Positions 4,887-12,725 of a stretch of DNA of 13,558 nt are shown here, piece after piece. The translations under genes were made by a program, and so were the position numbers. Position 1 is the first letter of the stretch; each line of letters begins with the position of its first letter. The notes beneath the pieces are model-generated. The model was not told the DNA's origin. It saw nothing but the letters and a program-made list of their open reading frames with translations, and made no database searches. This DNA is from Alphaproteobacteria bacterium (GTDB taxonomy: Bacteria; Pseudomonadota; Alphaproteobacteria; Rs-D84). The stretch is from positions 1-13,558 of the forward strand of contig JAGBGA010000118.1 in assembly GCA_017936185.1 (NCBI GenBank). Reading direction: 5' to 3'.

Positions 4887-5546
4887 TTATCCACGAAATC
4901 CCATGGCAACAATAAACATTTCAACACTGTCTTTTCGTGACGACGGCGGTTTCATATGATGAACTGATTCGAATTTTTCTTTGATTTGCTTTAACAAATC
5001 TTGGGTTGTGCCACCGGTAAAGGACTTGCACACAAACGTTCCGCCCGGCTTCAATGCCCGCAACGCAAAATCAAACGCATATTCCAACAACACCATCTGA
5101 CGAATATGATCTGTCTTTTTATGACCGACCGTATTTGGCGCCATATCTGAAACAATCACATCGGCGGTACCATTACCAATTTCATCGGGTGCCAAGTTTA
5201 ACTTTTCTTCCAGCCATCGCAACGCATCATCACTTGTAAAGTCACCTTGATACGTTTCAACGCCAACAATTGGTGAAATTTCCAACAAATCCATTGCAAA
5301 GATTTTTGATTTTGGATACGTACGCGCAATATATTGCGACCAAGACCCCGGCGCCGCCCCAAGATCAACAACAACCTGACCATCGCGCAAGAATTTGAAC
5401 TTTTCATTCATTTCAATCAACTTGTACGCGGCCCGCGCCCGGTATCCATCTTTGTGCGCCCGTGCGACATACGGATCGGCCGCCTGGCGTTGCAACCATG
5501 CGACCGAAGATTTTTTACTGGCAATTTTTTTATTTGTTATTTTCAT
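4887..5546 (-). CDS. rlmE: 23S rRNA U2552 2'-O-methyltransferase RlmE (FtsJ/RrmJ)
   Basis: RlmE methylates the ribose of U2552 in the A loop of 23S rRNA during late large-subunit assembly, using S-adenosylmethionine. The 219-residue protein has the K-D-K-E catalytic set: K42 in RARAAYKLIEM, D134 in VIVSDMAPN, K174 in FVCKSF and E209 in SSRKDSVEMFIVA. The SAM-binding loop is DLGAAPGSWSQ (61-71). The N terminus is lysine-rich, as expected for an rRNA-binding enzyme, and the length is typical. It is the last gene of the uvrA - M-domain protein - rlmE unit, starting 13 nt after the M-domain stop with no clear ribosome-binding site, so it may depend on translation of the upstream gene. Confidence 0.95.
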   Translation of the reverse strand: MKITNKKIASKKSSVAWLQRQAADPYVARAHKDGYRARAAYKLIEMNEKFKFLRDGQVVVDLGAAPGSWSQYIARTYPKSKIFAMDLLEISPIVGVETYQGDFTSDDALRWLEEKLNLAPDEIGNGTADVIVSDMAPNTVGHKKTDHIRQMVLLEYAFDFALRALKPGGTFVCKSFTGGTTQDLLKQIKEKFESVHHMKPPSSRKDSVEMFIVAMGFRG

Positions 5547-5559
5547 ATTTTGTCATTTT

Positions 5560-6075
5560 TTATTTTGCACCCGGCACACCGCCCTGTTGCATACGTGCCA
5601 TAACCGCTTCCATTCCACCCATACGCTGAATCATTGCCATTTGCTGCTTCATTTTTGTATACTGCTTTATCATATGTTCAACATCACGAACTGTACAGCC
5701 CGCAGTTTCGGCAATTCGCGCTTTTGCATTTGCAAAAACCTTTTCTGGTTCACTGCGTTCGGCCGGCGTCATTGCTTCAAGAATTTTAATTTGCGCATCG
5801 ACACTGCCATCTTTTATCTTTTCTTTCATTGCGGACACCGCCCCCGACATACCAGGCACCATTTTTAACAGTCCGCTAAAGTTGCTCATTTTTTTAATTT
5901 GTTTTAACTGGGCCAGCATATCATTCATATCAAATTGTCCCGACATCATGCGCTGGGCTGTTTCCTTCATGCCACTGGGCATTTTATCCATACCCAAATC
6001 TTTTTCTGTGGCATTAACATCTGTTACATTATCCACTGCGACTTTTTTTTCTTTCTTTTTTCCAAATCCGAACAT
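5560..6075 (-). CDS. Free-standing SRP54/Ffh M-domain protein
   Basis: A 171-residue protein that matches only the C-terminal methionine-rich M domain of the signal recognition particle protein Ffh, which binds signal sequences and 4.5S RNA. Seen: SGQFDMNDMLAQLKQIKKM (45-63), equivalent to the FDLNDFLEQLRQMKNM start of Ffh M; the finger-loop-like NFSGLLKMVPGMSG (65-78); ILEAMTPAERSEPEKV (98-113), like IINSMTxxERxxPE; and RIAETAGCTVRDVEHMIKQY (120-139), like the RNA-binding helices. Methionines number 21 (12%). Residues 1-30 are charged (MFGFGKKKEKK) and not Ffh-like. There is no NG GTPase domain in this frame or upstream, where uvrA ends 16 nt before it. The usual RIAxGxG RNA-binding loop reads RIAETAG, so binding to 4.5S RNA may be altered. 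AGGAG lies 7 nt before ATG 6075. It may be a paralogue or half of a split Ffh; the role is unknown. Confidence 0.85.
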   Translation of the reverse strand: MFGFGKKKEKKVAVDNVTDVNATEKDLGMDKMPSGMKETAQRMMSGQFDMNDMLAQLKQIKKMSNFSGLLKMVPGMSGAVSAMKEKIKDGSVDAQIKILEAMTPAERSEPEKVFANAKARIAETAGCTVRDVEHMIKQYTKMKQQMAMIQRMGGMEAVMARMQQGGVPGAK

Positions 6076-6091
6076 ATACCTACTCCTTTTT

Positions 6092-8953
6092 TTACTTTTT
6101 TATTTTATTTGCTTTTACTGCTTTGTCCAGATACTTTTTCAAATATTTTCCTGTTTGTGATTCTGGCACATTTGCAACATCTTCGGGTGTACCGGTTGCG
6201 ATAACCCGGCCACCACCGGCACCACCTGTTGGTCCCAAATCAACAATCCAATCCGCCGTTTTTATTACATCCAAATTATGTTCAATAACAATTACAGTGT
6301 TTCCCTGCTCTACCAACTCGTGCAAGACAGACAACAACATTTTTATATCTTCAAAATGTAATCCTGTTGTTGGTTCATCCAATATATATATTGTTTCCCC
6401 GGTGCTTCGCGCAGCCAATTCCTTGGACAACTTTATACGTTGCGCTTCCCCGCCAGACAAATCAAGCGAACTTTGTCCCAACTTTATATAATCCAATCCC
6501 ACACGTTTCAGCAATTCCAACTTTCTTGAAATTTTTGGCACATTTACAAAGAATCTGTATGCTTCTTCAACGGTCATATTCAGCACATCTGCAATTGATT
6601 TACCTTTGTACTTTACCGCCAGTGTTTCTTCATTATACCGCGTCCCATGACAACAATCACATTCGACATAAACATCGGCCAAGAAGTTCATTTCTATCTT
6701 TATCTGTCCATCACCTTGGCATGCTTCACATCGCCCGCCTTTGACATTAAAAGAAAACCGTCCCGATGTATATCCGCGCGCCTTGGCTTCGGACAAGCCC
6801 GCAAAGAAATCACGAATATCGCCAAACACACCGGTATACGTTGCCGGATTACTGCGTGGTGTGCGTCCAATTGGCGATTGGTCAATATCAACCACCTTGT
6901 CGATATTTTCCATACCTGTAATAATATCATGCGCCCCTGTTTCCAACTTTGAATTATAAAGCGCGCGCATCAGCGCAGGATAAAGTGTACTTAGCAACAA
7001 CGACGACTTTCCCGACCCCGACACCCCTGTCAAAGCAATAAAGCGCCCCAACGGAAATTCAACGGTTACATTTTTCAAATTATGTTCACGCGCCCCCGAA
7101 ATAATAATTGATTTACCGTTTCCTGGACGTCTTTTTGTGGGCACCGGAATACTTCTTTTTCCCGCCAGATATTGTCCCGTTATTGAATCTTTATTTTTTA
7201 TAACCTGTTGTGGCGTTCCATGCGCAATAACATTTCCACCATTAACCCCAGCCCCACGTCCAATATCAACCAAATAATCCGCCGCCAACATTGCGTCTTC
7301 ATCGTGTTCTACAACAATAACTGTATTATCCTTGTCGCGCAACATCTTCAGCGTTTCCAACAAGTTATCATTATCGCTTTGATGAAGTCCAATTGATGGT
7401 TCATCCAAAACATACAATACCCCGGACAGACCACTTCCAATCTGTGATGCAAGACGAATACGTTGTGCTTCCCCGCCCGACAAAGTTCCCGCCATACGTG
7501 ACAATGTTAAATATCCCAACCCAACATTTTGCAAAAAGTATAATCTGTCCGTTATTTCACGCAAAACGATACGCGCAATTTCATTATCTTTGACCGACAA
7601 ATGATTTGGCAAATCGCGAAACCACTTTAACGAATCATCAACTGACATATCGCACACATCCATAATATCTGCGTCATTTATACGCACACACAACGCGTGA
7701 ATATTTAATCGCTTGCCATGGCAAACCGGGCATGGCTTTTCCGATTGATACTTTGCCAATTCGCTTCGCATTGCTTCTGAATCAGATTCCCGCCATCTGC
7801 GTTCTATATTTGGGATAACACCTTCATACGGCTTTTCATAAACAAACCCATTCCAATTTATTTTAATTGGTTCATCACCACTGCCATACAAGACCAAATC
7901 TTTTTGTTCTTGGGTCAGTGTATGCCATGGTTTTGACAACGGTATTTTGAATTTTTTATGAAGCGCGTCTAATAAATGTTCAAACTGGCTAAGCATTCCG
8001 CCACGCGACCATGGTGCAATCGCACCACCAAGTATAGACTTTGATGGGTCTGGCACCACCAAATCAGGCGACATATTTAATTGCACCCCCAACCCATCAC
8101 AATTTTGACACGCCCCCATTGGCGCATTAAAAGAAAACAATCGCGGTTCGATTTTTGGCACTGTAAAGCCACTGACCGGGCATGCATAACTTTGCGAATA
8201 AAGCGTATCTTCGTTTGTATCCAAACGACGCACCAACACCGACCCCGGCACCAAGCGAAGCGAACCTTCGAACGACGAATAAAGGCGCGATTTAAATTCT
8301 TCTGTATCTGAATCAGACGGCGGCATTTGCAATCTGTCCACCACGACCAAGATTGTATGCTTTTTATTTTTATCCAATGGCGGCACCGCCGACAAATCAA
8401 CAATTTCACCATCAATAATTGCACGCTGATACCCCTGCTTTACCAAGAACGCCAATTCCTTGCGATATTCACCTTTGCGTTCACGCACCAATGGTGCAAG
8501 AACAAAAATCTTGGTACCCGCAGGAATTTTCATTGTCCAATCGACCATTTCTGCAATTGTCTGGGACTTGATTGGTTTTCCAGTAACCGGTGAATGTGGC
8601 ACACCAATACGCGCCCACAACAATCGCAAATAATCATAAATTTCTGTTACTGTACCAACGGTTGAACGCGGATTTTTTGATGTTGTTTTTTGTTCGATTG
8701 AAATTGCCGGTGCCAATCCTTCGATTAAATCAACATCTGGCTTTTTTTGCATATCCAAGAATTGACGTGCATAACTGGACAACGATTCGACATAACGCCG
8801 TTGCCCTTCGGAATAAATTGTATTAAATGCAAACGATGATTTTCCCGACCCAGAAACGCCCGTAAAGACCACCAATTTATTTTTTGGTATGTCTAAATCA
8901 ATATTTTTAAGATTATTTTCGCGTGCATCACGAATTTTTATTATTCCAGCCAT
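6092..8953 (-). CDS. uvrA: Excinuclease ABC subunit A (UvrA)
   Basis: UvrA is the damage-sensing ATPase of nucleotide excision repair and loads UvrB at lesions. The protein of about 953 residues has two ABC ATPase modules. The first has Walker [10 protein letters not shown] (32-40) and signature [16 protein letters not shown] with [10 protein letters not shown]. The second has Walker [12 protein letters not shown] near residue 645, signature [15 protein letters not shown], and [10 protein letters not shown]. The C-terminal zinc module CEAC...CDCC is complete. In the first module the usual CxxC reads CPVSG while CQNC remains, a variant I know from alphaproteobacterial UvrA. I chose ATG 8953 rather than the in-frame ATG at 8962, because a promoter predicts transcription beginning near 8957. 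Length matches the family (E. coli 940). It is the first gene of the operon with the M-domain protein and rlmE. Confidence 0.97.
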
Positions 8954-8963
8954 AGTACACATA

Positions 8964-10835: not shown

Positions 10836-10847
10836 TTATGATATAAT
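10818..10847 (+). promoter_or_regulatory. Promoter of the ftsB-like gene
   Basis: TTGATT (10818-10823) and a perfect TATAAT (10842-10847) are 18 nt apart. The predicted start near 10854 is directly next to ATG 10855. The in-frame ATG at 10846 overlaps the -10 box, so it cannot be the start on this transcript. Confidence 0.6.
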
Positions 10848-10871
10848 GCCATCGATGAAAGGAAAAATCAA
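10843..10871 (-). promoter_or_regulatory. Promoter of dusB
   Basis: TTGATT (10871-10866) and CATTAT (10848-10843) are 17 nt apart on minus, predicting a start near 10836, one base before ATG 10835. Its -10 overlaps the -10 of the ftsB promoter on the other strand, so the two should compete. Confidence 0.4.
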
Positions 10872-11181
10872 AAATTTATTCAGTTTTTTATCCCGCGCAT
10901 GGTCTGGTGGCTGGCGCGGAAAAATCGGCATAGCCCTTACATTATTTGCATGTTTTATGTTCATTGGCCTTTTTTGGGGCAGTGTCAGCGTCCAACGCGT
11001 CGCCATAAACGTATGGGAATTGAATCAAGAGCAAGCACAACTTGCCCATGAACAAGACACATTACAAGAAATACAAAAACACATTGAACTGTTACAAAAT
11101 TACAGTCCAGACTATGTCGAAGAACTTGGACTAAAATATTTAAACATCGGCACCCCGAACACAAAAATACTTAAAATTTAA
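10855..11181 (+). CDS. ftsB: FtsB/DivIC-type septum formation initiator
   Basis: A 108-residue single-pass membrane protein of the FtsB/DivIC family, which with FtsL and FtsQ helps activate septal wall synthesis. Seen: a basic N terminus, one membrane helix (about 22-42, IGIALTLFACFMFIGLFWG), a heptad-like coiled coil rich in Q, E and L (about 51-83), and a conserved-type end PDYVEELGLKYLNIGTPN (85-102) like the xxYIEExARxxLGMxxPGE tail of the family. ATG 10855 was chosen over 10846 because the latter lies in the -10 box. Its plus orientation and C/A-ending codons match rnhA. The family call rests on architecture and tail, not on a strong motif, so the symbol is provisional. Confidence 0.78.
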   Translation: MKGKIKNLFSFLSRAWSGGWRGKIGIALTLFACFMFIGLFWGSVSVQRVAINVWELNQEQAQLAHEQDTLQEIQKHIELLQNYSPDYVEELGLKYLNIGTPNTKILKI

Positions 11182-11204: not shown

Positions 11205-11681
11205 TTAATTCAGCAATAACACCGTTCCATTTAAATAAAGCGCAAATACCAACCACGCCAAATATGGCCACACCAGATATGATGCCGCACGACTTATTGG
11301 TTTAAAGGCAACCATCATCCAAATCGCCACTGCAATCAACGCGACAAGACACAACAACGCCCCACCAACGAACTGTAATCCAAAGAACAAATAAGACCAC
11401 AATGCATTCAAACACATCTGTGACACAAACAATGCGTACGCTTTTGTTTTACTTTGTCTTGTTTTGTCATTGTTCATTATCAAGAACAACGCAATACCCA
11501 ACAAGGTATAAAGTATAATCCACGCCCAAACAAACACCCAACCATTTGGTGTTAACGCAGACTGATTTAACGCATTATACCATTCATTTGCCCCGGGCGA
11601 CATTGGCGAAAAGAACCCGCCAATAATACCTGGGATAAACGAAATAACGATTGCCAAAATAAACATTAAAAATTTTTTCAT
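11205..11681 (-). CDS. tspO: TspO/MBR tryptophan-rich sensory protein
   Basis: TspO proteins are five-helix membrane proteins that bind porphyrins and cholesterol-like ligands and modulate tetrapyrrole or stress responses. The 158-residue sequence has five hydrophobic segments (about 3-22, 44-67, 76-97, 101-122 and 128-152). Family blocks are visible: WYNALNQSALTPNGWVFVWAW (35-55), QMCLNALWSYLFFG (83-96), and the end VWPYLAWLVFALYLNG with its Y..W...A..LN pattern. Start ATG 11681 has an AGGAGG ribosome-binding site 6 nt upstream; the 14-residue upstream extension to 11723 does not. It is transcribed alone, and a possible operator overlaps its promoter. Confidence 0.95.
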   Translation of the reverse strand: MKKFLMFILAIVISFIPGIIGGFFSPMSPGANEWYNALNQSALTPNGWVFVWAWIILYTLLGIALFLIMNNDKTRQSKTKAYALFVSQMCLNALWSYLFFGLQFVGGALLCLVALIAVAIWMMVAFKPISRAASYLVWPYLAWLVFALYLNGTVLLLN

Positions 11682-11694
11682 ATGAATCCTCCTT

Positions 11695-11733
11695 GTGATA
11701 AAAATTGTATCACATTGGCACAATTAATATCAC
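11695..11733 (-). promoter_or_regulatory. Possible tspO promoter with operator-like repeats
   Basis: TACAAT on minus (11709-11704) is a plausible -10, with GTGATA (11733-11728) 18 nt upstream as a weak -35. GTGATA (11695-11700) and TATCAC (11708-11713) form an inverted repeat around the -10, and a third copy TATCACA occurs at 11728. This is consistent with a repressor site, but the regulator is unknown. Confidence 0.35.
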
Positions 11734-11800: not shown

Positions 11801-12550
11801 TTAATTTGTAAACTTGCATTTTTGGGAAAACGTATATTCACCTGAATTGTCTTGATATTTAACGTCATCACCATATCCGACAAAACATTCTGTCTTCCCC
11901 AACTTTATCCCCGCATCACTTTTACCTGGATAAGTATTGCCTCCACTGGTCATCGTCGGACATACCGCACACCCAGTGCATGACGTAAAATTACCACTTG
12001 AATCCACGCTACAGTTTACCAAAGCATAAAAACTAGCATTAAAACTTGCTGACGTATTATAATATCCTGCAGCGCATCTAAATTTGTTTCCGTATTCCCA
12101 CTGACATGTACTTGTATTACACGAACAAGTCTGCTCATAATCATATCCATCAACACCTGTTTCAAACCAAAACGGCAACGTATGACAAATCCCATCACAC
12201 GTCCCATTACAATCACTTGCCGAAACAACACAATTTTTAATTGTTTGTGTGGCGTTACTGCTGCACCCCGGAAGGGTAATTGTTTGATTTGTTAATGTTC
12301 CTTTACTGCAAGAATTGCATGTTGCATACTTAAAATAAGTACCATCACTTCGCTGCACACAGTATTCCGTTACATTTGAACAAAACGTCATTGTATTAAC
12401 ATAAGCTGACACCCCACTGCAATTACTGATTGGCACAACATTACAGGCTGTAAAAGCAATGCCACCAACATCCGTAGTCGCGGCATATACCCCACGCACA
12501 GCAAAAACACAAAAAAATCCAATAAAAAACAACTTTGTGATTATTTTCAT
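11801..12550 (-). CDS. Secreted cysteine-rich protein, function unknown
   Basis: A 249-residue exported protein that I cannot assign. ATG 12550 has a GAGAG ribosome-binding site about 10 nt upstream. An upstream in-frame extension to 12640 runs into an inverted-repeat element and is rejected. Residues 1-23 are a signal peptide (MKIITKLFFIGFFCVFAVRG, cleavage near VYA|AT). The mature part has 21 cysteines in about 226 residues, spaced throughout: CNSCSKG, DCNGTCDGIC, TCSCNTSTC, RCAAGYYN (a CxAGYY block), SCTGCAVC and TECFVGYG. The end, GEYTFSQKCKFTN, and NTYPGKSDAGI before it recall a family of cysteine-rich exported proteins I have seen in gut Alphaproteobacteria. That memory is unverified. 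N-rich N-x-S/T sequons are frequent but have no known meaning here. It stands alone between a repeat element and its own terminator. Confidence 0.82.
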   Translation of the reverse strand: MKIITKLFFIGFFCVFAVRGVYAATTDVGGIAFTACNVVPISNCSGVSAYVNTMTFCSNVTEYCVQRSDGTYFKYATCNSCSKGTLTNQTITLPGCSSNATQTIKNCVVSASDCNGTCDGICHTLPFWFETGVDGYDYEQTCSCNTSTCQWEYGNKFRCAAGYYNTSASFNASFYALVNCSVDSSGNFTSCTGCAVCPTMTSGGNTYPGKSDAGIKLGKTECFVGYGDDVKYQDNSGEYTFSQKCKFTN

Positions 12551-12579
12551 ATTAATTTCTCTCTTCTTTTTTACGAATG

Positions 12580-12725
12580 TGCCAAATCCATCGGGGGCGT
12601 TTACAACTAGGAAAGAAACGGTGGTTTGGATTCGGCACAAAATGGCCTTGACTTTTGTCCGAAAAACATGGAAAATTTACATTGAATCAGTGCCAAATTC
12701 AAAGGACCGTTTGGATTCGGCACTG
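12580..12725. repeat. Compound inverted-repeat element (REP/MITE-like)
   Basis: Four copies of one motif in alternating orientation: GTGCCAAATCCA (12580-12591), TGGATTCGGCAC (12628-12639), CAGTGCCAAATTCAAA (12688-12703) and TTTGGATTCGGCACTG (12710-12725). Each adjacent pair forms a hairpin, with 11 of 12 and 14 of 16 bases complementary, and the two outermost arms are also mutually inverted. The second hairpin is followed by a T-rich run on plus, so it may stop plus-strand transcription. No coding capacity or flanking target duplication is evident. It lies directly before the secreted-protein gene and could be part of its leader. Confidence 0.65.

Follow-up and report, generated by a model that had tools for sequence, protein, structure and literature searches.

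The core of the signal recognition particle (SRP) is taken to be a GTPase pair and an RNA, and chloroplast SRP retains both of its GTPases. Every domain of life is said to possess the particle (PMC8230904), and IOLA, another tiny bacterium, retains Ffh and FtsY (PMC8155191). In seed plants, chloroplast SRP54 operates without SRP RNA (PMC8321541), while in E. coli the loss of SRP can be compensated by suppressors that slow translation (PMC7844537, PMC8299109). Loss of the particle is therefore possible in principle.

The closest described protein, MAP67/mL105, is found in ciliates, green algae, apicomplexans and others. This mitochondrial relative of Ffh, which consists of the M domain only, has been treated as eukaryotic, and its proposed origin is a duplicated mtFfh from which the N and G domains were deleted (PMC8321541). 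mL105 has been seen at the tunnel exit of the mitoribosome, where a helix reaches into the tunnel and contacts bL23m (PMC7326499), and in an alga the density attributed to the OXA1L insertase adjoins it (PMC9576764). A search of titles and abstract beginnings in the open-licence literature returned no report of a bacterial M-only protein or of SRP-less bacteria.

The gene analyzed here encodes a bacterial M-only protein from an alphaproteobacterial clade that appears to have lost both SRP GTPases and the RNA, with the signal-binding domain under strong selection. The protein shares with bacterial Ffh the M domain, the locus, a conserved core and a methionine-rich tail, but differs from it by the absence of the NG domain, of 4.5S RNA and of FtsY, by an altered RNA loop and by a new N terminus. 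Like MAP67/mL105, it is an M-only relative of Ffh; whereas the former is mitochondrial, the latter is bacterial, is the sole ffh product, is encoded at the inherited locus and carries its own N-terminal peptide. The NG deletion proposed for MAP67 is seen here in place, in bacteria. The similarity to mL105 (6z1p_AT) is weak, the M-only profile scoring 26.8 bits, scarcely above the 24.8 bits of the Ffh profile, and common descent of the two as M-only proteins is not supported at the sequence level. Chloroplast SRP54 resembles the bacterial protein in working without SRP RNA in seed plants, but its system has both SRP GTPases, neither of which was found in the M-only clade.

An ffh gene without its NG-coding part

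The window, i.e., the whole stretch of 13,558 nucleotides that was analyzed, carries the M-only gene on the minus strand (5560..6075, ATG start, stop codon included), encoding 171 amino acids. The first-pass annotation had described an intact gene, and inspection of the sequence confirmed this: a ribosome-binding site, AGGAG, lies on the minus strand at 6083..6087 (CTCCT on the plus strand), 7 nt before the ATG, and gaps of 16 and 13 nt separate the gene from uvrA upstream (6092..8962, minus strand) and rlmE (rrmJ/ftsJ) downstream (4887..5546, minus strand), the latter assigned from best NCBIfam matches to rrmJ/RlmE that fall below their cut-offs. Elsewhere in the window, three Cys-rich proteins whose starts look by eye like signal peptides are encoded on the minus strand (733-1134, 1144-1602 and 11801-12640) and have no Pfam match, a short DivIC/FtsB-like protein lies at 10846-11181 (plus strand, under the Pfam cut-off) and a TspO-like tryptophan-rich sensory protein at 11205-11723 (minus strand, under the NCBIfam cut-off).

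Analysis of the 171-residue protein revealed that residues 47-146 form an entire M domain for signal-peptide binding, matched over the full PF02978 (SRP_SPB) model (1-91 of 91; 81.9 bits for a cut-off of 27; E 4.3e-23), while Pfam lists no SRP54 G or N domain on it. The NCBIfam ffh model (TIGR00959) aligned only over positions 315-427 of 428, with 85 bits for a cut-off of 473. The predicted fold, of moderate confidence (mean pLDDT 71, below 50 for residues 1-29), gives the same M-only architecture as the Pfam match, so that the free-standing M domain described from the sequence holds under profile search. This case is hidden by annotation: six of the best 120 of 890 relatives carry a source name, and in each it is 'hypothetical protein'. 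The M-only protein was also sought in named genomes, which yielded 164 encoding stretches, 80 of which were kept.

Comparison with relatives identified the M-only gene as ffh itself, still in its ancestral position between uvrA and rlmE but stripped of the NG-coding part. In sister genera uvrA also lies upstream of full-length ffh: this arrangement was found in 12 of 14 fetched loci of the family, with gaps of up to about 1.8 kb, and in 8 of the 14 rlmE lay downstream in the same orientation. The M-only gene is flanked by uvrA and rlmE in all 20 loci of the window's genus that were examined, which puts it beyond chance, and likewise in the genera g37, g39 and g42; in g38 uvrA precedes M, and a gene that we take to be ligase-like separates M from rlmE. 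A tblastn search with Ffh-NG and FtsY (E 1e-3), which matched 4 of 4 controls, detected no NG remnant in a set of 110 loci from NG-less genomes, in which some genomes occur more than once and two loci hold the rlmE side only. The earlier statement that no NG sequence lies upstream is therefore true of the window and of these loci as well. Its companion, that the gene is not a truncation remnant, stands in that the gene is conserved and not decaying, and fails in that it is an ffh that lost its NG part in place.

Conserved and altered parts of the M-only protein

Selection acting along the protein was estimated from 77 sequences, using dN/dS as a ratio of means; of 2,926 pairs, the 312 whose overall dS fell between 0.2 and 1.2 were used. 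The M domain together with the helix before it (residues 31-160; 5596..5985, minus strand) is under strong constraint, with a dN/dS of 0.046, compared with 0.014 for residues 2-8, 0.94 for the hypervariable linker (residues 9-30; 5986..6051, minus strand) and 0.40 for the tail.

The near-invariant N-terminal peptide MFGFGKKK (residues 1-8; 6052..6075, minus strand) is new relative to Ffh and is carried on this freely evolving linker. It was present in 74 of 80 genus loci, and the pattern MFGFG[KR]K in 103 of 103, among which a genome may be represented more than once. Since the Phe and Gly codons vary, the peptide and not the DNA is what selection keeps. In the deeper genera the N termini read MFGFGKKK (g39 and g42), MAFLGFGKKK (g38), and MSWFSKKKK and MAWFGRSKK (g37), with a common pattern in which lysines or arginine come after a hydrophobic-aromatic beginning. 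In the order, certain FtsY N termini are alike (MFGNLGKK, MFGKLG), those of the family less so (MGIFSKI); an origin of the peptide from FtsY is not claimed, the peptide being too short for a homology test.

In Ffh, the SRP RNA is held by a loop of the form S-R-K-x-R-I-A-x-G-S/A-G. Its counterpart in the window, NAKARIAETAG (residues 116-126; 5698..5730, minus strand), contains the RIAETAG already read in the first pass. Counting over all loci without a loop filter, the first loop Arg and the Gly were present in 51 of 51 Ffh loci, and were replaced by Ala and a non-Gly residue, respectively, in 103 of 103 loci of the M-only genus. Five M-only loci of other genera showed Ala in four cases and the loop Gly in none; in g38 the first Arg is kept, the second is changed to Glu and the Gly is lost. 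Core residues were compared in 76 of 80 genus loci and 13 of 30 comparison loci, chosen by a text filter on the loop. The genus keeps the second loop Arg and the core motifs P-G, M-T-x-x-E-R and Q-x-x-Q, and several positions of the M-only proteins are fixed to new residues, for example S64, I96 and K97.

Distribution of the SRP GTPases and 4.5S RNA in the order

The window belongs to the genus Candidatus Enterousia, order Rs-D84, class Alphaproteobacteria. Genomes of this genus, from farm-animal faeces, measure 748-1,015 kb, and the paper describing them contains no mention of SRP (PMC12306168). In the window's own genome (71% complete), a genome-wide search returned a single PF02978 match, which is the window gene, and no match to PF00448, a model that covers both Ffh and FtsY and was detected in 14 of 14 control genomes. 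We then scanned 99 genomes with this model (the window's own, 58 of the genus, 18 of other families of the order and 22 of the class): none of the 58 genus genomes had a match over the cut-off, and all 18 genomes of the other families had two matches each.

Over 190 genomes of the order, PF00448 was absent in 156 at E 1e-5, which means that neither Ffh-NG nor FtsY is found there. The 34 genomes with a match (18 from other families and 16 from the same family) all had a best E of 7.5e-41 or lower; by subtraction, those without comprise 149 genomes from the genus (counting that of the window) and seven from the five sister genera g37, g38, g39, g42 and g44. Among the 126 high-quality genomes of the order (at least 90% complete, at most 5% contaminated), PF00448 was absent in 106 and present in 20, while PF02978 was found in 125. 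The presence of PF00448 tracks genus borders (16 of 22 genera).

The M domain itself was detected in 142 of the 149 genus genomes. G100, the most complete of the seven others, also lacks rlmE, which points to the simplest explanation that this locus is absent from the assembly; in the single genome of g44, rlmE is cut by a contig end and M was not seen. Although nearly all genomes analyzed are metagenome-assembled, G106 is a single contig of 1,001,484 bp that contains the M-only gene and no PF00448 match, which excludes the assembly artefact considered at the outset; one M-only locus, L192, is placed on OX097180.1 (1,001,484 bp), which is the Ca. Enterousia intestinigallinarum chromosome 1. 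The loss of the whole GTPase and RNA pathway across the genus lay beyond the view of a single window. Because no NG gene, whether NG-only or full-length, was found in the genome or the genus, the M-only protein is not the second half of a split Ffh, as the first-pass annotation had envisaged. Its other suggestions, a paralogue or a regulator of SRP, are excluded: neither another Ffh nor FtsY nor detectable 4.5S RNA remains for it to regulate, and sister genera carry full-length ffh at the same locus.

Weak matches to PF00448, below the cut-off (E 1e-4 to 1e-3) and ending at model position 151, occurred in 18 of the 58 genus genomes. The one that was opened, in L116, is a two-G-domain GTPase and not an SRP component, presumably Der/EngA. 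Separately, G093, a genome of the same class (600 kb, one contig, 88% complete), has YidC but yielded neither PF02978 nor 4.5S RNA, nor a PF00448 match above the cut-off, and may be a second reduced alphaproteobacterium that has lost SRP altogether.

The 4.5S RNA was searched with the Rfam model RF00169 at E 1. No match was obtained in any of the 58 genus genomes, nor with laxer filters in seven genus genomes and the L192 genome, while 15 of 18 genomes from other families of the order gave one, two of them below the cut-off. None of the 16 family-mates with SRP GTPases reached the cut-off, eight giving sub-threshold matches and eight none, which indicates that the RNA has drifted; in G105, the sub-threshold match lies at a different place from that of the family model. 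Among 11 NG-less genomes, matches at noise level were obtained in two (E 4.2 and 7.3). RF00169 being too blunt to assess RNA loss, a family-specific covariance model, R1, was built from 13 sequences (seven of the family and six of the order). R1 revealed 4.5S RNA in 15 of the 16 family-mates with SRP GTPases, at E 8.4e-9 or better; seven of these were in the model, so that the independent positives amount to eight of nine, the miss being G141. At E 1, it detected none in 24 NG-less genomes, the search scoring only 111 candidates in genomes that had many. On the single-contig chromosome, neither Ffh-NG, FtsY nor 4.5S RNA was detected with PF00448, RF00169 and R1. The loci L253-L259 reveal a family-specific short 4.5S RNA that scores below the Rfam cut-off. 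Its apical stretch is invariant, GGTCAGGGGGAAACCAGCAGCC being shared by seven of the eight family loci read and missing from the eighth, L260.

Candidate role and origin of the stand-alone M domain

As GTPases, receptor and RNA are all missing, the classical SRP cycle cannot run in these bacteria. What survives of the initial proposals is the binding of hydrophobic segments without GTPase control, and we infer that SRP has been dismantled and that the stand-alone M domain probably serves as a nascent-chain binder independent of GTP and RNA, linking the ribosome to an insertase. With the NG half of Ffh, FtsY and 4.5S RNA gone and the signal-sequence-binding M domain retained, the M-only protein would sit at or near the ribosome tunnel exit, where its methionine-lined groove could hold emerging transmembrane segments. 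The aromatic and lysine-rich N-terminal peptide, on its flexible linker, may touch the anionic membrane surface or the ribosome, and the nascent chain would pass by proximity to YidC and/or the Sec translocon. Targeting would then need no GTP cycle, RNA or receptor, release being driven by the insertase.

This proposal of a tethered binder handing chains to an insertase draws on the retention of YidC (PF02096) in 54 of 58 genus genomes and on matches to SecD, SecF and YajC in 400 kb (40%) of one chromosome; mL105, next to which the OXA1L density lies, provides a precedent. In this same 400 kb sample, SecY, SecA, SecE, uL23, uL29 and uL24 gave no match, and the trigger-factor match covered only the middle part, in no frame of at least 150 amino acids. 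Two observations run against the proposal: the first loop Arg is kept in g38, and YidC was not detected in four of the 58 genomes, including G022, G043 and G056 (96-99% complete), where it may be missing through an assembly gap or a real loss.

More tentatively, and with confidence short of even, the co-translational membrane targeting of a whole clade could be run without GTP by one small protein, an M domain fused to its own peptide for docking to membrane or ribosome, replacing SRP, SRP RNA and receptor, as a bacterial replay of the step by which mitoribosomes came to retain mL105/MAP67. Mitochondria are usually traced back to the class Alphaproteobacteria. These tiny-genome gut bacteria appear to parallel some mitochondria, independently, in keeping only the M domain, and so offer a bacterial model for that retention, in a case that separates the M domain's own role from what the GTP and RNA cycle adds.

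The first alternative, which we consider unlikely, is a soluble, cytosolic holdase acting post-translationally on hydrophobic stretches with no tie to ribosome or membrane, comparable to RNA-free chloroplast SRP54 or to SecB. The absence of both RNA and GTPase fits this role, but the near-invariant N-terminal peptide, set off by a freely evolving linker, points to one constant docking partner, and the chloroplast system retains its GTPases. That system's independence of RNA in seed plants (PMC8321541) speaks for a holdase. It is more doubtful still that the M domain was repurposed for a job other than membrane-protein targeting, such as assisting ribosome assembly or acting as a regulator: newly fixed residues such as S64, I96 and K97 and the adjoining rlmE would suit such a change, but much of the M-domain core is conserved and the neighbors were inherited from the ffh locus, so that the position of the gene carries no new information.

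It is highly improbable that the SRP GTPases and RNA are present and escaped detection through divergence or incomplete assembly. Incomplete metagenome-assembled genomes, the drift of 4.5S RNA in GTPase-bearing relatives (0 of 16 at the Rfam cut-off) and the two noise-level RF00169 matches leave some room for it; against it stand the partition of the 126 high-quality genomes along genus borders, the separation by R1 of 15 of 16 from 0 of 24, and the single-contig chromosome devoid of all three components. Finally, a decaying pseudogene heading for full loss, as the missing NG and the seven of 149 genomes without an M match might suggest, is scarcely credible, being contradicted by the constraint on the M domain at a mean dS near 1 and by the joint absence of M and rlmE from G100.

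Returning to the main reading, the NG part may have been lost once or twice. In a tree of uvrA, rlmE and rnhA, g1, g37, g39 and g42 group together, while the M-only g38, with its GFGKKK, is placed next to g41, a genus with full Ffh (support 86); a tree in which g38 was represented by rlmE alone puts it beside g40. The AU test rejects a single M-only clade by a narrow margin (p 0.045), the SH test does not (p 0.052), and the shared N-terminal peptide favors one loss. In one g40 genome (G164), the full-length ffh is split into two frames by an in-frame TAG (L228:4104-5492), which may be a sequencing error or a first step of loss.
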